From: Peterkaempfera griseoplana
Lineage (GTDB): Bacteria; Actinomycetota; Actinomycetes; Streptomycetales; Streptomycetaceae
Length of the DNA: 64,000 bases
Assembly (NCBI RefSeq): GCF_001418575.1
Contig: NZ_LIQR01000054.1
Span: 1-64,000, forward strand
Reading direction: 5' to 3'
Positions 15,162-27,839 of this stretch are shown piece by piece. Below the pieces are notes generated by a model. The model was given only the letters and a program-made list of their open reading frames with translations. It did no database searches and was not told the DNA's origin. How positions within the stretch are numbered: position 1 is the stretch's first letter; every line of letters begins with the position of its first letter. The translations under genes and the position numbers were made by a program.

Positions 15162-15353
15162 TTGAACCCGAACCCCACCTGTTGCTTCTGCTACGAGGTC
15201 ATCGATCTTGACCAGGACGGGGCAGCGACCGAGCTCAGGCTCGGTGCTGTTAACCCGGCGCGAGGCGATAGCGTGCGGCAGAAGGCCTACTCACACTCAA
15301 GCTGTCTGCGCGAGCGAGTCCACTCGAACATCGAGCTCTGGTGGGAGTTCTGA
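15162..15353 (+). CDS. small protein with CxxC and HxxC zinc-type motif
   Basis: 63 codons from a TTG at 15162 with GAGAGGG upstream. CCFCYEVIDLD near the start and AYSHSSCLRERVH near the end give a CxxC...HxxC set, which would make a small zinc ribbon. Short proteins with this pattern and an H-x-x-C-L-R ending are common in streptomycetes, function unknown. It lies inside the IS5-like element ahead of the transposase, so it is either a passenger or a captured gene end. Confidence 0.5.
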   Translation: MNPNPTCCFCYEVIDLDQDGAATELRLGAVNPARGDSVRQKAYSHSSCLRERVHSNIELWWEF

Positions 15354-15411
15354 GACGGAGCTGACCTTCACGGCTGCCGATCACGGGTGCGGTGATCTCG
15401 GAGTGCCTGGT

Positions 15412-16170
15412 GTGATCACGGCGTCGGAGCCGTCCTGGATAGCCCCGTTCACCGGGCTGAGCCCGCGCGACTTCCGCAAGCTGATGACGGCCCTCCGCCA
15501 CGAAGGCGCCGACACCGTGCGGCCCGGCCGGCCGTGGAGCCTTCCCTTCGAAGACCGGGTTCTGCTGGTAGCGGCTTACTGGCGCACCAACCTGACACTG
15601 CGGCAGCTCGCTCCGCTGTTCGGCGTGTCCAAGTCAGCGGCCGACCGAATCATCGACCACATCGGCCCGCTGCTCGCACTCAAGCCCCGCAGGCGGTTCC
15701 GCAAGGACACCGTGCTGATCGTCGACGGCACCCTGGTGCCCACACGCGACCACAGCATCGCCGAGCAGTCCAAGAACTACCGGTACTCGACCAACCACCA
15801 GGTCGTCATCGATGCCGACACCCGGCTGGTCGTGGCTATCGGACGCCCGGTGCCCGGCCACCGGCACGACAGCAAAGCGTGGGAGGAGTCCGGGGCCAAG
15901 GCCGCGGTCGGCAGGATCACCACGATCGCTGACGGCGGCTACCTGGGCACGGGCCTGATCATCCCGCACCGCCGCCCGCCCGGTGGCGAACTCGTTCAGT
16001 GGAAGCAGGAACACAACCACTCCCACAAGCAGGTCCGCGCCCGTGTCGAGCATGTCTTCGCCCGCATGAAGACTTGGAAGATTCTGCGTGACTGTCGGCT
16101 CCAGGGCGATGGCGTCCACCACGCCATGCTCGGCATCGCCCGCCTGCACAACCTCCTGCAGGCCGCGTAA
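15412..16170 (+). CDS. IS5-family transposase (DDE)
   Basis: 252 aa from a GTG at 15412, the point where the family begins (VITASEPSWIAPFTGLS). Order: helix-turn-helix LTLRQLAPLFGVSKSAAD, then the DDE core with LIVDGTLVPT (D1), TTIADGGYLG (D2), and RARVEHVFARMK (E). The set of catalytic residues is complete, so the enzyme may be active. Confidence 0.88.
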   Translation: MITASEPSWIAPFTGLSPRDFRKLMTALRHEGADTVRPGRPWSLPFEDRVLLVAAYWRTNLTLRQLAPLFGVSKSAADRIIDHIGPLLALKPRRRFRKDTVLIVDGTLVPTRDHSIAEQSKNYRYSTNHQVVIDADTRLVVAIGRPVPGHRHDSKAWEESGAKAAVGRITTIADGGYLGTGLIIPHRRPPGGELVQWKQEHNHSHKQVRARVEHVFARMKTWKILRDCRLQGDGVHHAMLGIARLHNLLQAA

Positions 16171-16239
16171 CCGAGCGGGCGGCCACCGAGATCAGCACAT
16201 CCGCAGTCGGACGTGATCAATTACGGGACAGCCCTTAGG

Positions 16240-16489
16240 CTACTGCTCGGGCCCAAGTCGGATTCGAGCCGGGTGCGTGGTGTCTCGAGCTTGAGCGGTC
16301 CCTGTTCCTCAAGCTGGGCGACCAGTTCGCCAACGTGGGCGACCATATGGTCGGACGTCGCACTTCCGGGCAATGGAGCGGCCGGCCGGAAGCTTCTCCC
16401 CTTTGTGCTCGGGCTGGCGGTTGTTCTGACAAGTCGCGCCCGTCGCGTGCCTGGGCGGGCGGCACTGAGCAGCGGAGCCTCCCCCTGAG
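16240..16489 (-). other. 250-bp spacer between the two insertion sequences, possible gene end
   Basis: The minus strand reads HMVAHVGELVAQLEEQGPL followed by LETPRTRLESDLG and a stop near 16224, which looks like the C-terminus of a protein whose 5' part was cut off by the IS3-like insertion at 16490. Nothing upstream restores the gene, so this is only a possible remnant. Confidence 0.3.
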
Positions 16490-16545
16490 TGGTGGACACG
16501 CTGATACTGGATCTGCTTGATCCGGAGGAAGCGAGAACACCGCCG

Positions 16546-16901
16546 ATGGCGATGAAGGACTACTCGGACGAGTTCAAGGCCGATGCGGTGGCCCTGTTCG
16601 AGTCCACACCCGGGGCGACCTACAAGAGCATCGCCGCTGACCTGGGTATCAACAGGAACACCTTGCGGACCTGGGTGCTGCGGGACCGCGAACGCCGGGG
16701 GACCGGCCCGGACGCTGCCCGGGCCGGCAAGACGGCAACCCTCGGACCACGCCGACTGCACCGTCTGAGGATCCGGATGAGCGGATCCGGCAGCTGGAGG
16801 CGCGGGTCGCCGAGCTCGAGGCGAGTGAGCGGAAGCTGGCCACCGAGCGGGACATACTCCGCAAGGCGGCCAAGTATTTCGCCGGGGAGACGAACTGGTG
16901 A
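16546..16901 (+). pseudogene. IS3-family transposase OrfA, frameshifted
   Basis: The first frame gives the helix-turn-helix part (MAMKDYSDEFKADAVALFE, then KSIAADLGINRNTLRTWV). Around 16740-16765 the reading must shift to reach SEDPDERIRQLEARVAELE and ERDILRKAAKYFAGE, the leucine-zipper C-terminus expected of OrfA, which ends at the TGA overlapping the OrfB start (GTGA). So the protein has one internal frameshift near GGACCACGCCG. IS3 elements normally shift between orfA and orfB, not inside orfA, so the copy is probably disabled or misread. Confidence 0.7.
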
Positions 16902-17794
16902 GGAGCCGCTTCCAGTTCGTCGACGACCACCGGGACGCCTTCGAGGTGAAGCGGCTCTGCGAGGTCTTGGACCTGAACAGGTCCAGCTACTACAAGTGGC
17001 TGGCCGGCCGCGAGGCCAGAGCAGCCCGGCAGCGGGCCGACCGGCGTCTGGCAGCCGTGATCCGACAGGTCCACGCGGAATCCGGCGGCGCCTACGGCTC
17101 CCCGCGGGTGACCGCCGAGCTCAAGGAGGCGGGCCTGCTCGTCAATGAGAAGCGGGTCGCCCGGGTCATGCAGGCGTTCTCCATCACTGGCGTCCGCCTG
17201 CGCAGACGCGTGCGCACCACCGTCCCGGACCAGGCGGTCGCCCGGGTTCCGGACCTGTTCGAGCGGGACTTCACTGCCGCCGAGCCAGGGCGGAAATACA
17301 TGGGTGACATCACCTACCTGCCCCTCGCCGGCGGCGAGTTCCTCTATCTCGCGACGGTGCTGGACTGCTTCAGCCGCAAGGTCGTTGGCTGGTCCATCGC
17401 CGACCACATGCGCACCGACCTGGTCGCCGACGCCCTGCGGATGGCCGCCCGCACCCGCGGCGGCCTGGACGACTCCGTCTTCCACTCCGACCACGGGGCC
17501 CAATACGGGTCCAGGGCCTTCGCCGAGCTCTGCGACCAGCTGAAGGTCACCCGGTCGATGGGCGCCGTCGGCAGCAGCGCGGACAACGCGGCCTGCGAAA
17601 GCTTCCACGCTTCCCTCAAGCGCGAGACCCTCCAAGCAGCCCGCGACTACGGTGACCCCGCCACCTGCAGGAACCGGGTCTTCGCCTGGCTGACCCGCTA
17701 CAATACCCGCCGCCGGCACTCCGCCAACGGCCACCTCAGCCCCAACGAATACGAACGGCGACACCACGTCGCTAAACTCACGCTCGCCGCGTGA
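16898..17794 (+). CDS. IS3-family transposase OrfB (rve integrase core)
   Basis: 298 aa. It has an HTH_21-type region (SGGAYGSPRVTAELKE) followed by the DDE catalytic core: YMGDITYLPL (D), SVFHSDHGAQYGS (D) and NAACESFHASLKRE (E). It starts with the GTG that overlaps the OrfA stop. The catalytic core is intact. Confidence 0.88.
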   Translation: MRSRFQFVDDHRDAFEVKRLCEVLDLNRSSYYKWLAGREARAARQRADRRLAAVIRQVHAESGGAYGSPRVTAELKEAGLLVNEKRVARVMQAFSITGVRLRRRVRTTVPDQAVARVPDLFERDFTAAEPGRKYMGDITYLPLAGGEFLYLATVLDCFSRKVVGWSIADHMRTDLVADALRMAARTRGGLDDSVFHSDHGAQYGSRAFAELCDQLKVTRSMGAVGSSADNAACESFHASLKRETLQAARDYGDPATCRNRVFAWLTRYNTRRRHSANGHLSPNEYERRHHVAKLTLAA

Positions 17795-18008
17795 TCAATG
17801 AAGCGTGTCCACCATCACGGGGGAAGGCCCAGCGGCGTTATCACGCGCAATCTCTCTGAGCTCGGCCGGGGGCGGCGAGAGACTAGCGTGCCACAGTCGT
17901 GCCACAACAGGCGGTATCAGGCGGAGGTTCGGGGTCGCTCATGGACGGTGGATAGCCGGAGGCTCGAGACAGATGGATCGCAGGTCAGCAGGGAGGCGCC
18001 GCCGAAGG

Positions 18009-18052
18009 CTTACAAAGCAGGGGTCGGCGGTTCGAAACCGTCTGCGCCCACC
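18009..18052 (+). repeat. attachment-site-like tRNA 3'-half repeat, copy 1
   Basis: 44 bp from CTTACAAAGCAG to CGCCCACC. It folds as the 3' half of a tRNA: anticodon loop CTTACAA (anticodon TAC), T-arm GGCGG-TTCGAAA-CCGTC, acceptor strand TGCGCCC and a CC end. The matching 5' half is absent. Tyrosine integrases of actinomycete islands use exactly such tRNA 3' ends as the att core. The right side carries the shared arm (to 18350) but the left side does not, the form expected of an element's left junction. Upstream, 17880-17925 holds a doubled GTGCCACA motif. Confidence 0.65.
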
Positions 18053-20015: not shown

Positions 20016-20399
20016 ATGGATCCGCGGACGCTCCTCGGGTGCCGGCTGCGAGACGTCGTCGCTGCGTGGCACATCTCCGAGGGCGCGAAGCAACACCAGC
20101 CGATCGACGTTTGGTTGGTGCTTGACGTGGGCGGCCCCGTCGAGATCGGTGTCGCCTCGGACTGGCAGCTGACTCTCCAAGTCGGGCAGCCGTACGAGCC
20201 GTACGACATGCAGGAGTGCGGCGCAGTTGAGGTGGGTCCACTCTCTAGGCACTTCCCGCTTACGAAGTATCTGGGAGAAGAGATCCGGGGCGTGGGTGAG
20301 GACGTCCATCCCGTGGCTGGCCGCATGGGGATGGATCTCCGGTTTGCGTCTGGTGGGGTTCGGGGGCTTCGCAGGCCCCCCATACACCCGGAGGCCTGA
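20016..20399 (+). CDS. hypothetical protein (127 aa), possibly C-terminally altered
   Basis: MDPRTLLGCRLRDVVAAWHI at the start and DVWLVLDVGGPVEIGVASDW in the middle give a beta-rich soluble protein of a type seen in many streptomycetes. The last ~15 residues (GGVRGLRRPPIHPEA) look low-complexity and may follow a small indel. Function unknown. Confidence 0.55.
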   Translation: MDPRTLLGCRLRDVVAAWHISEGAKQHQPIDVWLVLDVGGPVEIGVASDWQLTLQVGQPYEPYDMQECGAVEVGPLSRHFPLTKYLGEEIRGVGEDVHPVAGRMGMDLRFASGGVRGLRRPPIHPEA

Positions 20400-20440
20400 G
20401 GCGCCGTAAAGAACGCGGCTCGCAGTCTCCGGCTGAGTCG

Positions 20441-20914
20441 GTGAAGAGCAGCACCTCCGCTCCTTCCGTCCGTCCTGACCCAATCGACGCGATGACGGTG
20501 ATCAAGGGAGTGGTAGAGCGGGTACCGAAGGAGCTGGAGGCTGCCGGGGCCGGCGAGGTTTCGCCGTCCGGGGCGCTTGTCACAGCAGTGCGCAGGGCGG
20601 TACTGGACGAGTTCCGTACGCGCGCCCAGTTCGCCGGACGCCTCGCCGAGATCGACGCACTGCTCTGGTCCAAGGCCGGCGGCAGTCGTGAGGTGGTCGC
20701 AGGTGCGATGACTGCGCACCTGCGAGAACTACGGCTGCTACGAGTGACGGAGCCAGAAGCGAGCGACCGGTTCGTGGTGACCGAGGGCGAGGGAGAAGCC
20801 CTTGAGCTGCTGAGTCCGGCGTACGTCGATGAGTTGACAGGGAAGGTCATCCTTGCGGGACAACTCCGGCGCGTCGCCGGCCCTGCGGGTATGAAGTGGG
20901 GTGAAGAAGCATGA
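20441..20914 (+). CDS. small partner protein of the Hsp70-like gene (GrpE position)
   Basis: 157 aa, helical N-terminus (DAMTVIKGVVERVPKELE) and a compact, winged-helix-like C-terminal half (VVAGAMTAHLRELRLLRVTE). Its stop overlaps the Hsp70-like start (ATGA), so the two are translated together. A GrpE-like exchange factor would fit this place, but I see no clear GrpE fold signature; a DNA- or client-binding adaptor is equally possible. Confidence 0.6.
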   Translation: MKSSTSAPSVRPDPIDAMTVIKGVVERVPKELEAAGAGEVSPSGALVTAVRRAVLDEFRTRAQFAGRLAEIDALLWSKAGGSREVVAGAMTAHLRELRLLRVTEPEASDRFVVTEGEGEALELLSPAYVDELTGKVILAGQLRRVAGPAGMKWGEEA

Positions 20915-22981
20915 CGGCGGCTGGCATCGACTTCGGGACCACCAACTCTGTCGCCGCCCAGTGGAACGGCGAGTACGTCGAAGTGCTGGAGATCTTGTGG
21001 GCAGGGCTTGGACGCCAATTGGGGGCGCAGGGGGTTCGAACTGCTCTACCCGTCGGTCGTCGGCACGAGTTCCCTGAGGCCGGGCACGCTGTTCGGCTGG
21101 GAGGCGAAACTCCGTTCCGAAGAGGCCGTCGAGGCATGCAAGCGCATGCTGCGTGAGGAGCCGTTCGTCAAACTGGGTGGTGAGCGGTTCGCGGCGACCA
21201 CCGCCGCGGCCGGCGTCTTCCACGCCATCGCCAGGGCCGCGGAGGAGGAAGCCGCCACCGAGATCCGCGAGGCCGTCGTCACGGTGCCCGCCAACGCGAC
21301 CGGCGCGGCCCGATTCCGTACGCGTGAAGCAGCCCGTGCCGCGGGGATCACGGTCCGAACCCTGCTGAACGAACCGACGGCAGCGGCGATCGCCTACGCC
21401 CACGAAATGGAGGTCGACGGCGAGTTCCTGGTCTTCGACTGGGGCGGCGGCACGATGGACGCCACCCTGCTCCTGCACGACGACGGCTTCTTCGACGAGA
21501 AGGCGAGCCGAGGCGTCAACCGCCTCGGCGGCCTGGAGATCGACGCCCGGCTGCGCCGCATGGTCCTCGACCGGGCGCCCGCCCGCAGGGGCTGGAGCGC
21601 CTCGGAGAAGCGGATGTTCGCCCTCGACATCGAGCGGGCCAAGATCCTGCTCTCTCAGCAGGAGTCCGTCGGCGTCCAGACGCCTGACGGGGCCCTCGTC
21701 GAGATCGGACAGGAGGAGTTTTCCGAGGCCATCCAGGACCTGATCAGCCGTGCGCTCGATCCCGTGGAGGAATGCCTGGAGTACGCCCGGATCGACCCTC
21801 GGCATCTCACTGCCGTACTGATGATCGGTGGCAGCAGCCAGATCCCAGCCGTACGCGCTGCGGTCGCCGAGGCACTTGACTGCGAACTCGTCGACACCGC
21901 AATGTGTGACCCCATGACCGCGGTGGCCGAAGGAGCAGCGATCAGCGCGGCGGCCATGGACGGCAAGCTGAAGAGCATCATCCGCGTGGTCAACACACAC
22001 GCCCTCGGCACGATTACCAAAGACCGCGAAGGCAGGCGGGGATTCAGCGCCATCATCGACCGGAACATGCGTCTGCCCCAGCAGCGCATGAAGTCATACG
22101 AACCGCACAAGGACAACATCTCCCGCCTGACCGTGGAAGTCTGGGAAGGAGACCCGGACCGCGACGTAGACCACCCGGACAACGTCAAACTGGCCGACCT
22201 CGTCCTGGCCTACCCACGGCCCTGCACGGCTGAGGAGGGCATTTTCGATCTGGAGTACACCTACAGCAAGGAAGGGCTCCTGACCGTCAAGGCGACCCTT
22301 CAGAAGACCGGGGAGGTTGTCCTCGACGGAGAAGTAAGGGTGTTTGGGGACGGGAACGTCCTGCCAGAGGTGAAGAAGGAACTCGACCGCCTGCTCACCC
22401 TTGCCCCGACCGCCCGGCCCGCTGCCACGCCGACCCATCCGCAGCAGGCCCGGACCAGCGACCAGAGGGACGGAGTACCCAAGCCCGCTCCGCCGCGTCC
22501 CTCACCCCGACCGGCACCCACCAGTGCGGAAGCACCGCCGCTCATCGTGGACGGCTCCAACCTTGCCTGGAACGGCCGGCCTCCGCGTGCAGCGGGTGGC
22601 AGACCGAGCTTCGCGGCGCTGGAGGCGGCTGTCCGGTCACTGCGGTTCAAGCATCCGGATTGCGACATCCACGTGGTGGTCGACGCCACCCTGCGCCACG
22701 ACGTGTCTGCCGAAGAGCGCCCTCGTGTGGAAGACGCCATCGCGAACGCGAAGGTCGTGCAACCCCCAGCCGGGACGGAGGGCCGGGGCGACGCGCTGGT
22801 GATCAGCATCGCTGAGGAGGTCGGCGGGGTCATCATCTCCAACGACAACTTCGCGCCATTCCAGAAGGCGCACCCTTGGCTCCGGGCCCCGGGACGGATC
22901 CGCGGAGCCACTCACTCCCAGGGCATATGGGTCTTCACTCCGCGCGTACCGAATGCGGGAGCGCCCGCCCGGCTGAGGTGA
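20911..22981 (+). pseudogene. Hsp70-like ATPase fused to a Regnase-type NYN RNase domain, frameshifted at ~21000
   Basis: The first frame opens with the Hsp70 phosphate-1 motif GIDFGTTNSVAAQW. Near 20995-21010 the reading must shift to continue as GFELLYPSVVGTSSLRPG to 22981. The rest has NEPTAAAIAYA, the phosphate-2 motif FLVFDWGGGTMDATL and the adenosine motif VLMIGGSSQIPAVRAA, followed by a short substrate-side region and a Pro-rich linker (about 90 residues before the end of the Hsp70 part). The last ~150 residues are a NYN/Zc3h12a-like RNase: LIVDGSNLAWNG, VVVDATL, and GVIISNDNFAPF, with the acidic residues for metal binding. So an ATP-driven chaperone seems tied to RNA cleavage. The chain would be about 690 aa if the indel is removed. 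Confidence 0.72.
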
Positions 22982-23112
22982 TCGCGGTTGACGAGGCGCG
23001 GACTGCGGCAATCACTACCGGGTTCCACAGTCCGCGCCAGGACGCGAACAACTCAACGGCCACCCTGAGGTGGGCCGCCGGCCGGCAGCCGCGTGTGGCA
23101 GCATCTCCGCAC

Positions 23113-23928
23113 ATGGGCGGGAGAGAGAACAGCGACGAGGCGTACGTCCTTGATCTGTGTGACGAGGTTCTCGGCGAGCAGGGCCTTCGGCAGCACCGGT
23201 TCGAGTGGCTGCTCGGCGATGCCGGATCCGCGGGGCGGCAGACCAGGCTCCCGGTGGACAGTTACTGGCCGAGTCGGAAGCTCGTCGTGGAATACCGGGA
23301 GCTGCAGCACGACCAGGCCACGCCGTTCTTCGACAAGCCCGGACGCTTGACGGTGAGCGGCGTGGACAGAGGCGAGCAGCGGGCGCTGTACGACGCTCGA
23401 CGCGAGGCGGAGATCCCCGCTCGGGGCCTGCGCCTGCTCGTGATCCGACCTGCCGACCTGGACGCCAACAACCGGGGCCGACTGCACCGCCGGGACCGCG
23501 CCCGCGACCTGGAAGCGGTCCGCGGCCTTCTCGCCGCAGCACAGGGAACGGACCCGGCATCGCAGACCAGTTGGGCGCGCGACGAAGACCGGGTGGTCGA
23601 CGCCTTTCGGCGCTGGCTGATGACCGAGGGCTGGACACCGGTCGCGCCCACGGACCCGCACACCGACATCGAGGCAGTGCGAGGCGATCAGCGACTGGTC
23701 GGAGAGGCAAAGGGCCGCACCAAGGAACGCGGCACCGATGCCGACATAGCCTACGGACAACTCCTGCGCCGTATGACCGACCCTTCCCCGGATACCTGCT
23801 ACGCGCTGGTCGTGCCTTCCTCGTCCGTGATCCACGCCTTGCGGGTGCCAGCCCAGGTGCGCAGTCTGCTCGGAATCAGCATCTACGAGGTCGCCGACGA
23901 CGGCTCGGTGCGGATACGAGAGGCATAG
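23113..23928 (+). CDS. PD-(D/E)XK-like protein with two nuclease-type lobes
   Basis: 271 aa from the ATG at 23113 (MGGRENSDEAYVLDLCDE). The N-terminal lobe has LPVDSYWPSRKLVVEYRELQ, a D...EYxE pattern like Vsr/restriction nuclease cores. The C-terminal lobe, after WARDEDRVVDAFRRWL, has TDIEAVRGDQRLVGEAKGRT, a D...ExK core as in Mrr-type nucleases. It follows the Hsp70-NYN gene by 131 bp on the same strand and may belong to the same system. An in-frame start upstream of 22981 would overlap that gene and is unlikely. Whether one lobe is inactive cannot be told. Confidence 0.65.
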   Translation: MGGRENSDEAYVLDLCDEVLGEQGLRQHRFEWLLGDAGSAGRQTRLPVDSYWPSRKLVVEYRELQHDQATPFFDKPGRLTVSGVDRGEQRALYDARREAEIPARGLRLLVIRPADLDANNRGRLHRRDRARDLEAVRGLLAAAQGTDPASQTSWARDEDRVVDAFRRWLMTEGWTPVAPTDPHTDIEAVRGDQRLVGEAKGRTKERGTDADIAYGQLLRRMTDPSPDTCYALVVPSSSVIHALRVPAQVRSLLGISIYEVADDGSVRIREA

Positions 23929-24318: not shown

Positions 24319-27123
24319 TCACCAGCCGGGGTAGCGGTCCCACCAGTGCGAGTCCCAGCCTGGGGTGTATTCGGTGCCGCTCGGCCGTTCGGCCAACTGT
24401 GCGACGAGGTCGCGGGCCAGGGTGTCGATGACCCAGGCCAGTTCGTGGCGGCTCACCAGATCGATGGGCAGCGCATCGGCGCCGTGGGCTGCTCCGAGCA
24501 GCGCGCCGGTCACGCAGGCGACCGAGTCGCCGTCCGGCGCCCCGGCGGCGAAGCGCAGTGCGGCACCGAAGTCGGCGCGGCCGGGGAAGGATGCGGCGGC
24601 GTAGAGGCCGCCGAGCAGTGCCGAGGGCGCGGTGGCGTCCGGTGCGAGTCGGGCGAGGCACCCGTGATCGGCGGGTTGGTTGTCGGCCTGCCGAAGTGCA
24701 GTGGCGAGCCGGTCGTGGTCGTCTGCGGTCAGGCCGCGGTCGGAGTCACGAAGGGCCTGGATGCCGCCCGTCAAGGCGTGCCGCACCTGTGATTGCTTGC
24801 CGGACTGAGGATCCTGCATGCCGGGAGTGCTGGTCAGGCAGTGGGCGACCAGCACGGCGGCGTGGGCTGCCGCGGACTGCGCGGCCGTGTCGCCGTGGGT
24901 GAGGGCGGCGATCTCGCGGGCCCACCGGACTGTTTGGTCCGAGCCGTGTGCAGCTGCGACCACGGCGACAGGAAGGGTGCGGGTGAGGGCGTGGCAGCCG
25001 CGGCTGGTCGTCGTCGGCCTGTCCACGGTGCCCTGCTCGTCCTTGGAGAGGGCGGCCACGGTTGCCGGTGCGGAACCGCGCCGTTCGGCCAGCACGGGGA
25101 CCTGGGCGAGCCATCCGTCCGGCCACACGTTGTCGGTGCTGCCCCCGGCCCAGCGGCGCCGCATCCGTTCGGCCTCGATCCCCTGCAGGGCGGCCCACCG
25201 GCAGTAGGTGTGCCACACCACCGACGGCGGATGGCAGATGCCCTTGTGGTCGCCGCGCACCAATGCGCGGATCGTCCCCTCGGCGGTGAAGCAGGCCAGC
25301 TGGGTACTGACCCCGGCCTGCAGCGGGCCGCTGGCAGGCAGCTTGCCCCGGGCGGTGCCCAGCGTGTCCCCTAGCGCCAGGCCGAGCAGCATCCCGCGCA
25401 CCCGCGACGCCGCCCACTTGCCCTTGAGGAACTCCCTCTTCTGCTCCGCATCACCGCCCAGCTCCTCCAGCGGCTGCTCGGCACTGCCATCGTCCAGTCG
25501 GCCGACCCTGCCGAGCTGCCCCAGCTTGCCGACCCTCAGCGGGGACGCCTGTCCCGCCTCCCGGCCGGCTTTGGCCGCCCCACGGCTGCCCGACGAGGTA
25601 CCGCCGAGGGTGTCGTGGGCGGTCAGCTCGTGCACTGCGTTGTGCATCTCGGGATGCGCGTGGAGCTGCCAGCCACCGGTCAGCACACGCCGGAGGTCGT
25701 GCAGCGCGGTCGCGGAGTCGGTGCCGGTGGCCAGGTGGCTGTAGAGGGCGGCAACGGCCGGGGTACGGCTCTGCCCGGCCGCGCAGTGCAGCAGGACCCG
25801 CTTGCCGGCGCGGCGCAGCCGCAGCACCTCGCGGGCGGCTTGGTCCAGGACGAAGTGAAGGTTGGCGTTGTCCCCCTGGCTGTCCACCAGCCAGACACGG
25901 ACGTGCTCGACGTCGGCGCCGAGCAGGATCGGGCCGCTACCGACCCGGCACAGCGACACCACGGCGTCGACGGCGACCGGCTCGGTGCCCCGCGTCAGGG
26001 CCATGTTGCCGAGTATCAGCCCGGGGTCGTGCGGGTGAGGTATGGCGAAGCTGCTGCCGTGGGACGCGGCAGCCAGGCGCGGTGCCGAGGGCCAGCCGAC
26101 CGCATCGTCGCTCCCGCCGCGGGCGGTGAGTACCGCCAGCCGGACCAGGTCGACCGCGGAATGGCCGGGCCAGCCGTGGACGGCCTGCTCCCAGGCCAGC
26201 GGGATGCCGGAGCATCCCCAGCGCGCACCGAGCAGGGCGCCGGCAATCGCCGCGACCGTATCCGTGTCCTTCCCGGCCCGCACCGCCGCCTCCAAAGCAC
26301 GGCGCAGGTGCAGAGCAGGAAAACTGCCCTGGGCGGGGACCAACTCGGGAACGGCGGTGCGAATGATCGCCGACCATGCGGCCTGGAGCGCGTGGACAAC
26401 CCAGCCGTTGTTGGCAAAGTGATGCGGCAGGTTGGCCTCCGCCTCGTCCAGTCGCTCCGCCCACACACCTCGGCGCTCCGCCGGGAGGAGGTCCAGTCCG
26501 GCGCGGACGCCATCGAACGTGCCGTGAAGCACTGCGGTGCGGATGCCTGAGCACCACAGCACGCAGGCATCGGCGCAGTCGGCATCCGGGTGGGTCAGCG
26601 CGCTGACGGCAATAGCGGCCTCGGCCATCGCCGCGGGGTCGCCCAGATGCGTCAGGGCGACGATCCCGGTGCGCATCAGCGAGCCGTTGCCGGCGGCTTG
26701 ATCGTTGCCAGCAGTGAAGCGGCGCGCGGCGTCGATCAGTGCCGCACCCGGCGCTCCAGGGGTGCGGTGGGCGGCATCCAGGACGGAGCGGGTCTGCGAG
26801 CCGACGTCCGTAGCGCCGTCGCTCAGCCATCGATGGAAGTTGGCGGCGATTGCATCGAGGGACTCGGGAGTGCGCAGGTCCGCTCCGGTGGCCGCGACCT
26901 GGGCGATGCACACCTGCATCTGTGTGTCGTCGGAGTACTCGCCGGGCTCGTAGGGTCCCAGGCCGCCACCGATCATCCGCGGCTGCTGGTCCTCACCCAG
27001 CCTGGGCTGGAACTCGTACGGGACGCCCAACGCGTCGCCCACGGCCGCGCCGAGCAGTACGCCGGCGGCCCGGTCGATGGCCCGTACGTCCAAGTGAGGC
27101 TGCGGGGTGAGGGCGTGGGCCAT
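24319..27123 (-). CDS. ADP-ribosylglycohydrolase - dual-specificity phosphatase - degenerate glycohydrolase fusion
   Basis: 934 aa. The first ARH/DraG domain (residues ~15-330) keeps its di-magnesium site: GDALG (29-33), SDDTQ (64-68) and AGKDTDTVAAI near its end. The middle (~345-500) is a dual-specificity/tyrosine phosphatase with the P-loop HCAAGQSR (C447, R453). The second ARH domain (~575-930) has GLALGDTLG but TAEGTIRAL where SDDT should be and DGDSVACVTG where DTD should be, so its metal site is lost and it is probably a binding or regulatory domain. Expected chemistry is removal of ADP-ribose from proteins or nucleic acid, with a phosphatase for a linked phosphate. The ATG at 27123 has GGGAGA upstream. 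No signal peptide. Confidence 0.82.
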   Translation of the reverse strand: MAHALTPQPHLDVRAIDRAAGVLLGAAVGDALGVPYEFQPRLGEDQQPRMIGGGLGPYEPGEYSDDTQMQVCIAQVAATGADLRTPESLDAIAANFHRWLSDGATDVGSQTRSVLDAAHRTPGAPGAALIDAARRFTAGNDQAAGNGSLMRTGIVALTHLGDPAAMAEAAIAVSALTHPDADCADACVLWCSGIRTAVLHGTFDGVRAGLDLLPAERRGVWAERLDEAEANLPHHFANNGWVVHALQAAWSAIIRTAVPELVPAQGSFPALHLRRALEAAVRAGKDTDTVAAIAGALLGARWGCSGIPLAWEQAVHGWPGHSAVDLVRLAVLTARGGSDDAVGWPSAPRLAAASHGSSFAIPHPHDPGLILGNMALTRGTEPVAVDAVVSLCRVGSGPILLGADVEHVRVWLVDSQGDNANLHFVLDQAAREVLRLRRAGKRVLLHCAAGQSRTPAVAALYSHLATGTDSATALHDLRRVLTGGWQLHAHPEMHNAVHELTAHDTLGGTSSGSRGAAKAGREAGQASPLRVGKLGQLGRVGRLDDGSAEQPLEELGGDAEQKREFLKGKWAASRVRGMLLGLALGDTLGTARGKLPASGPLQAGVSTQLACFTAEGTIRALVRGDHKGICHPPSVVWHTYCRWAALQGIEAERMRRRWAGGSTDNVWPDGWLAQVPVLAERRGSAPATVAALSKDEQGTVDRPTTTSRGCHALTRTLPVAVVAAAHGSDQTVRWAREIAALTHGDTAAQSAAAHAAVLVAHCLTSTPGMQDPQSGKQSQVRHALTGGIQALRDSDRGLTADDHDRLATALRQADNQPADHGCLARLAPDATAPSALLGGLYAAASFPGRADFGAALRFAAGAPDGDSVACVTGALLGAAHGADALPIDLVSRHELAWVIDTLARDLVAQLAERPSGTEYTPGWDSHWWDRYPGW

Positions 27124-27795: not shown

Positions 27796-27839
27796 CTTAC
27801 AAAGCAGGGGTCGGCGGTTCGAAACCGTCTGCGCCCACC
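27796..27839 (+). repeat. attachment-site-like tRNA 3'-half repeat, copy 2 (both arms present)
   Basis: Identical 44-bp core, with the left arm before it and the right arm after it. Of the five copies this is the only one with both arms, the form of a free attP or of the junction between two tandem elements. Confidence 0.65.

Follow-up and report, generated by a model that had tools for sequence, protein, structure and literature searches.

The locus and its genes

The subject of this analysis is an Hsp70 gene fused to an NYN-type RNase domain, together with its small coupled partner gene, in a stretch of 64,000 nucleotides (nt) of Peterkaempfera griseoplana (assembly GCF_001418575.1, contig NZ_LIQR01000054.1, positions 1 to 64,000), which as a whole is called the window. 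An earlier note made from the letters had described an Hsp70 and a Zc3h12a-like NYN domain in one chain, preceded by a partner gene overlapping by ATGA at the usual place of a co-chaperone and followed by a PD-(D/E)XK gene, all within an att-bounded island suited to defence genes. The features of the operon in the window are as follows:

20365..20914, + strand: 5'-truncated gene of the GrpE-like partner (blastn/MAFFT junction, profile match, fold of a relative's protein)
20441-20914, + strand: partner open reading frame (ORF) as listed, with a GTG start at 20441
20365..20366: abrupt end of homology; the upstream gene with tetratricopeptide repeats (TPR) and a J-like domain and the 5' end of the partner gene are gone (blastn/MAFFT junction)
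20911..21156, + strand: 5' piece of hsp70 with the ATP-binding GIDFGTTNS motif and a premature stop from the frameshift (ORF list, DNA, alignment)
20993..20998, + strand: site of a net +1 nt relative to five aligned relatives, a mutation or a sequencing error (alignment)
21008..22981, + strand: remaining Hsp70-NYN reading frame of 657 codons (ORF list, Pfam)
21167..22315, + strand: rest of the Hsp70 nucleotide-binding domain and beta substrate-binding domain, with no alpha-helical lid (PF00012 positions 101-490 of 599)
22538..22876, + strand: NYN/Zc3h12a RNase domain with the motifs LIVDGSNLAW ... VVVDAT ... GRGDALV ... SNDNF (PF11977, 28.3 bits)

A Pfam scan placed both HSP70 (E 2.9e-53) and RNase_Zc3h12a/NYN (24.9 bits at a cut-off of 23) within the single frame 21008-22981, so that the fusion is genuine and the one-chain arrangement of the earlier note holds. 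The NYN domain scored 28.3 bits (cut-off 23) in a search of the whole genome, which contained no second NYN domain of this kind. The ATG of hsp70 at 20911 overlaps the end of the partner ORF by ATGA, as had been stated.

Conservation of a three-gene operon

One scan of genome contigs yielded 14 relatives, all from Streptomyces or Actinacidiphila, and a profile of the partner found homologues in 28 of the 345 host-family genomes, which rules out a fusion unique to the window sequence. Around each partner match we retrieved about 17 kb, in which genes were predicted with a simple codon-usage caller and grouped by clustering, while domain scans covered some of the neighbours. An Hsp70 gene adjoins the partner gene in all 28 partner-positive genomes, down to matches of E 1e-7. 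The gene order is constant in the retrieved loci, with a protein of about 570 amino acids (aa) first, then the partner and then Hsp70 (the triad), and the ATGA overlap between the last two is present wherever the Hsp70 gene is intact. Fusion, partner and upstream gene are therefore conserved among the homologues, whereas the PD-(D/E)XK gene behind them is not (see below). More distant versions of the triad occur in other actinobacterial families; in one of these (L096/L097), the J-like piece is a separate small gene right after hsp70, and an NYN domain is absent. Searches for the triad on plasmids or viral contigs gave no matches.

The Hsp70 and NYN domains

The protein is assigned to the Hsp70 family by its PF00012 match, its nucleotide-binding motifs and its substrate-binding domain, and the phosphate-1, phosphate-2 and adenosine motifs for ATP (DFGTTN, DWGGGT and GG) are invariant in the relatives, whose Hsp70 is accordingly predicted to be ATPase-competent. 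The helical lid is missing, as the PF00012 match stops at position 490 of 599, and the NYN domain sits after a proline-rich linker at the place where the lid would be. This domain combines the PF11977 match with the catalytic Asp/Asn set of the NYN/Zc3h12a family, and its nearest solved structures are those of KHNYN/ZC3H12. The residues D547, N550, D591, D627 and D645 (L002 numbering) do not vary among the 16 aligned members with an active-type NYN, two of which come from outside the host family; this conservation supports the earlier note. At the Regnase DD pair, Gly takes the place of the first Asp (GRGDALV).

Within the family the effector domain takes four states, namely an active NYN, a degenerate NYN with lost residues (L058, L060), no NYN in members behind Druantia genes (L059, L061-L069, L095), and no NYN in distant Hsp70s (L096, L097). 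A tree of the Hsp70s unites the NYN-active proteins (support 82/52) and places the degenerate and Druantia-linked members together in their sister group (support 100/100), with L096-L098 outside. Because the degenerate NYN copies fall inside the NYN-less group, the tree suggests an ancestor that carried an NYN domain which was later lost.

The partner and the upstream protein

Although the partner matches no Pfam family, its C-terminal motif FEVLRPAYVD.xTGKLILAGQLRR and the long helix before it pointed to GrpE before any fold search was made. An AlphaFold model of the L002 partner, based on 34 sequences and with a mean predicted local distance difference test score (pLDDT) of 72.5, contains helices at residues 70-87, 96-130 and 136-149 and six strands. 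The top six VIA-align matches of this model were all GrpE or GrpEL1 (Z 8.1-8.7), compared to 5.3 for the next unrelated chain, in agreement with the GrpE fold of a long helix plus beta-wing; plain Foldseek gave no significant match. We regard the partner as having a GrpE-like fold on the evidence of this model, which suits the co-chaperone position claimed for it. A weak Rfam mir-489 match inside the partner gene was taken as chance.

The upstream protein of about 570 aa was modelled as entirely helical (pLDDT 88). Plain Foldseek found no significant match for this model, and VIA-align showed a resemblance of residues ~320-435 to TPR repeats. The C-terminus (NPYLxLGLPHGAxxW..RxLRRE..LNxAxxRI) aligns with DnaJ J-domains in hhalign (E 4e-5), with a score of 28.9, where 200 column shuffles reached 17.7 at most, whereas the Pfam DnaJ model gives no match. 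The "J-like" domain described for DruH (PMC13192584) is a resemblance to phage-baseplate J, not to DnaJ, and was not used.

Damage to the window copy

The Hsp70 start MTAAGIDFGTTNS is in frame with the ATG at 20911, and the rest of Hsp70 lies one frame off, the change of frame falling about 28 codons into the gene. Where all five aligned relatives have ATC-GGCGG, the window has ATCTTGTGG, a net gain of 1 nt near 20993 owing to which the ORF from 20911 stops at 21156. The hsp70 gene is uninterrupted in the retrieved relatives, and programmed frameshifting was rejected as the default explanation, since the frame is continuous in the aligned relatives.

Nucleotide homology to the relatives (86-89%, blastn/MAFFT) begins abruptly at about 20365, with none before, and the partner profile matches with its positions 26-210 of 210 at 20357-20911. 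This sharp start means that the partner lacks its first ~25 codons, including the HRPCPACGQ zinc knuckle, and that the whole upstream gene of the operon is gone. A profile search found no homologue of the upstream gene anywhere in the genome of the window, and a second intact operon copy was searched for in the same genome and not found. The ORF at 20016-20399, which is probably a truncated gene itself, spans the junction at 20365, so that it ends in codons taken from partner sequence that is read in a different frame.

The ratio of non-synonymous to synonymous substitution rates (dN/dS) of the remaining frame is 0.17 relative to L002, close to the 0.14 between two intact relatives. The damage is therefore recent or, in the case of the frameshift and not of the truncation, possibly a sequencing error in a draft assembly of 802 contigs. 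Judged from its sequence, the window copy seems to be what remains of a three-gene chaperone operon in decay, inactivated by truncation and frameshift.

Association with defence genes

The NYN-less relatives are found behind genes of Druantia type IV. The gene upstream of the triad in L063 matches the PADLOC model of DruE4 over its full length (2189 bits), in L095 the triad directly follows DruF4, DruL4 and DruE4, and L118, which lies upstream of L059, contributes DruF and DruL, giving a full DruF-DruL-DruE-triad operon in L118 with L059. A search for DruL recovered it in 21 of the 345 host-family genomes; it was present in all ten Streptomycetaceae genomes with an NYN-less triad, about 7.6 kb from the partner gene, and in none of the 18 other triad genomes (Fisher p 8e-8, a value overstated by shared ancestry since the NYN-less loci are one clade). 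The genome G002, from the genus of the window, has DruL (C114:10856) without the triad.

Defence-type genes also stand beside NYN-bearing triads. In L093, a DruE-like helicase adjoins the Hsp70-NYN triad, and L055-L057 carry it behind a GajB-like SF1 helicase. A giant protein near the triad at L121:6101-12409 joins a Ser/Thr kinase to a DruE/YprA-like DEAD helicase that has an MrfA zinc-binding domain, and the same protein was assigned by clustering at L046:316-6717, its domains having been read in L121. The operon of L052-L054/L121 consists of this kinase-YprA helicase, a DrmD/DpdE-like helicase, a DrmMI-like methylase, the triad, LeoBC and LeoA, with overlapping genes. Further neighbours of the triad are GmrSD, NsnB, RAMA-domain genes and type I methylase genes. 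The defence setting proposed in the earlier note is thus borne out by relatives that occur in Druantia IV and ARMADA-like operons.

Other features around the operon

Three more features of the window belong to the surroundings of the operon:

23113..23928, + strand: PD-(D/E)XK-like ORF outside the conserved operon (shared by L002 only)
18026..18052, + strand: left 27-nt repeat resembling a tRNA 3' end, att-like (repeat search)
27813..27839, + strand: right 27-nt repeat resembling a tRNA 3' end, att-like (repeat search)

The ORF at 23113..23928 contains the stretch ...GDQRLVGEAKG..., which is PD-(D/E)XK-like by eye only, and matched no Pfam, NCBIfam or PADLOC model. Only L002, the closest relative, has the same gene, and the other 13 relatives are without it; the earlier note had counted it as a member of the cassette, which we discarded on these grounds.

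Five identical copies of the 27-nt repeat are present in the window (18026, 27813, 31645, 36600 and 49825) and two more in the genome (contig position 66183 and contig C669:20), all on one strand, and a 343-bp flank of the repeat is duplicated at 18008 and 27796. This pattern suggests that insertions occurred one after another at a single tRNA site. The island of the earlier note is marked by these repeats, but no intact tRNA was found at them. Between the two listed repeats, a protein of 934 aa is encoded at 24319-27123 (- strand), with two stretches matching models of ADP-ribosylglycohydrolases (Tri1/DraG-like) and a phosphatase-like HCAAGQSRT signature between them. Just outside the left repeat, at 15208-17794, there are two transposase regions, one of DDE_Tnp_1/4 type and one an IS3-like pair.

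Comparison with known systems

Druantia type IV has been published as DruE, DruF and DruL (PMC8565338). The NYN-less relatives of the triad stand directly behind DruF-DruL-DruE4 in one operon, whereas the published definition contains no Hsp70, GrpE-like or TPR/J-like gene (PMC8565338); the window and the NYN-bearing relatives lack DruF and DruL, and therewith the complete DruE, DruF and DruL set. ARMADA consists of YprA and of BrxHII-like and PglX-like proteins (PMC12458937). By PADLOC similarity, all three are found in ARMADA order in L052-L054/L121, where a YprA-like helicase fused to a kinase, a helicase like BrxHII/DrmD and a methylase like PglX/DrmMI precede the triad, but not beside the window locus or most relatives. 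The main text of the ARMADA paper mentions no Hsp70, DnaK, chaperone or NYN (PMC12458937), and the triad also occurs without ARMADA genes.

Conflict systems centred on a GAP1-N2 GTPase include HSP70, GrpE and DnaJ (PMC7159879) and resemble the triad as actinobacterial defence-type operons in which an Hsp70 is combined with a nucleotide exchange factor and with a protein that bears DnaJ or TPR domains. An NYN fusion is not described for them (PMC7159879), and the triad itself has no GrpE or DnaJ Pfam matches; a GAP1-N2 GTPase or FNIII protein was not recognised beside the triad, although no search was aimed at them. CoCoNuT type III systems contain Hsp70-like nucleotide- and substrate-binding domains in CnuD/CnuCD (PMC11090510) and share these domains with the triad; they are used there for RNA-directed defence, alongside a separate RNase (PMC11090510). 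In those systems the ATP motifs of the Hsp70s are degenerate, the Hsp70s are joined to McrC or McrB, and the RNases are of the HEPN type, whereas the triad has intact ATP motifs and a fused NYN; McrB or McrC did not match among the triad neighbours scanned, which are part of all neighbours. Regnase/ZC3H12 and KHNYN have an NYN domain of the same Zc3h12a family with DGSN, GD and SND motifs, but are eukaryotic, carry zinc-finger or KH domains and have no Hsp70. Neither an Hsp70-NYN fusion nor a Druantia-linked chaperone triad was described in the literature searched, which did not extend to supplements, where a mention in a table is possible.

Interpretation and alternative explanations

Hsp70/GrpE/J triads are classic proteostasis machines. 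The operon might accordingly serve stress response or RNA quality control, with the Hsp70 sensing unfolded or nascent host proteins, the NYN domain trimming mRNA or tRNA, and the defence genes merely using the same variable slot. Several alternative versions are indeed flanked by the same clusters (c17/c18 and c19-c22), and some of the neighbourhood could therefore be hitch-hiking. We nevertheless consider this role unlikely, because the patchy distribution in 28 of the 345 family genomes fits defence better, the NYN-less clade is strictly linked to DruF-DruL-DruE at constant spacing, and the triad is inserted into an ARMADA-like operon with overlapping genes. The position of a small coupled gene before one that bears an RNase, and again the patchy distribution, would also agree with a toxin-antitoxin-like unit, in which the GrpE-like or the TPR/J-like protein restrains an NYN toxin and the Hsp70 cycle plays no role. 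Hsp70s with a degenerate NYN or none have this partner and upstream gene as well, so the two genes are not there to neutralise NYN, and the Hsp70 ATP motifs are invariant, which makes this explanation very improbable. Nearly as improbable is an NYN domain that acts as an RNA-binding tether instead of a nuclease: the Gly in place of the first Asp of the DD pair would agree with it, and two relatives retain an NYN domain without the catalytic set, indicating that some copies outlive the loss of catalysis, whereas the other Asp and Asn residues of the Regnase set are invariant in 16 members.

As for the window itself, its copy might still be intact and functional if the additional nucleotide were a sequencing error and the truncated partner worked without its N-terminus. 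The fragmented assembly and the low dN/dS agree with this, and the zinc-knuckle N-terminus is missing in other lineages too, e.g., in L014 and L053. We doubt it all the same, as the upstream TPR/J-like gene is gone at a sharp junction and found nowhere else in the genome, and as two independent lesions would have to be explained at one locus.

The reading we favour, with moderate confidence, is that the window holds a remnant and that the intact triad acts as the sensor or regulator in antiviral systems, with either the NYN RNase or DruE as effector. The main argument for an exchangeable effector is that the NYN domain and the DruF-DruL-DruE genes alternate around the same triad. The triad would recognise a polypeptide made or exposed in infection; a misfolded or foreign protein is a plausible trigger for the Hsp70, as the earlier note had proposed. 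Control of the effector would lie with the ATP cycle of Hsp70 as tuned by the J-like and GrpE-like proteins: the J-like/TPR protein would deliver this polypeptide to Hsp70, resetting of the nucleotide cycle would fall to the GrpE-like protein, and a client-driven change in Hsp70 would switch the effector on or bring it into place. The outcome would be RNA cleavage by the fused NYN domain in one clade or DNA attack by the Druantia IV helicase-nuclease DruE in the sister clade, either of which may protect against phages. A more far-reaching version, which we put forward tentatively and hold as the less probable of the two, is that the triad is a transferable infection-sensing module for the NYN RNase (at the place of the lid), DruE or an ARMADA-like system, and that the nucleotide cycle of Hsp70 gates the RNase directly.

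Several observations weigh against these proposals. The operon is broken in the window copy, the NYN-active clade has modest support (82/52), and the NYN-less clade is a single lineage, so that its association with DruL does not represent independent events. Eleven of the 21 DruL-positive genomes have no triad, which is consequently not essential to Druantia IV, and in many NYN-bearing loci the ~8 kb inspected contained no YprA helicase. The J-like domain lacks the HPD motif of DnaJ in the alignment, and the Pfam models of GrpE and DnaJ do not match the triad proteins. The GrpE-like assignment depends on a model of pLDDT 72, the partner does not match the GrpE sequence family PF01025, and hhalign gave a probability of 3-4%; owing to this weak profile-profile comparison, we call the partner GrpE-like, not GrpE.

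Hsp70-like proteins are already present in a few bacterial conflict systems, whereas we found no report of a complete, dedicated triad in which a fused RNase and a YprA-family helicase-nuclease replace each other as effector. If the favoured reading is true, direct tests would become possible of what is sensed by Druantia IV and ARMADA-type systems, and likewise of whether a chaperone cycle can switch on a nuclease in response to a viral protein. The triad would then be a bacterial parallel to chaperone-based immune sensing.

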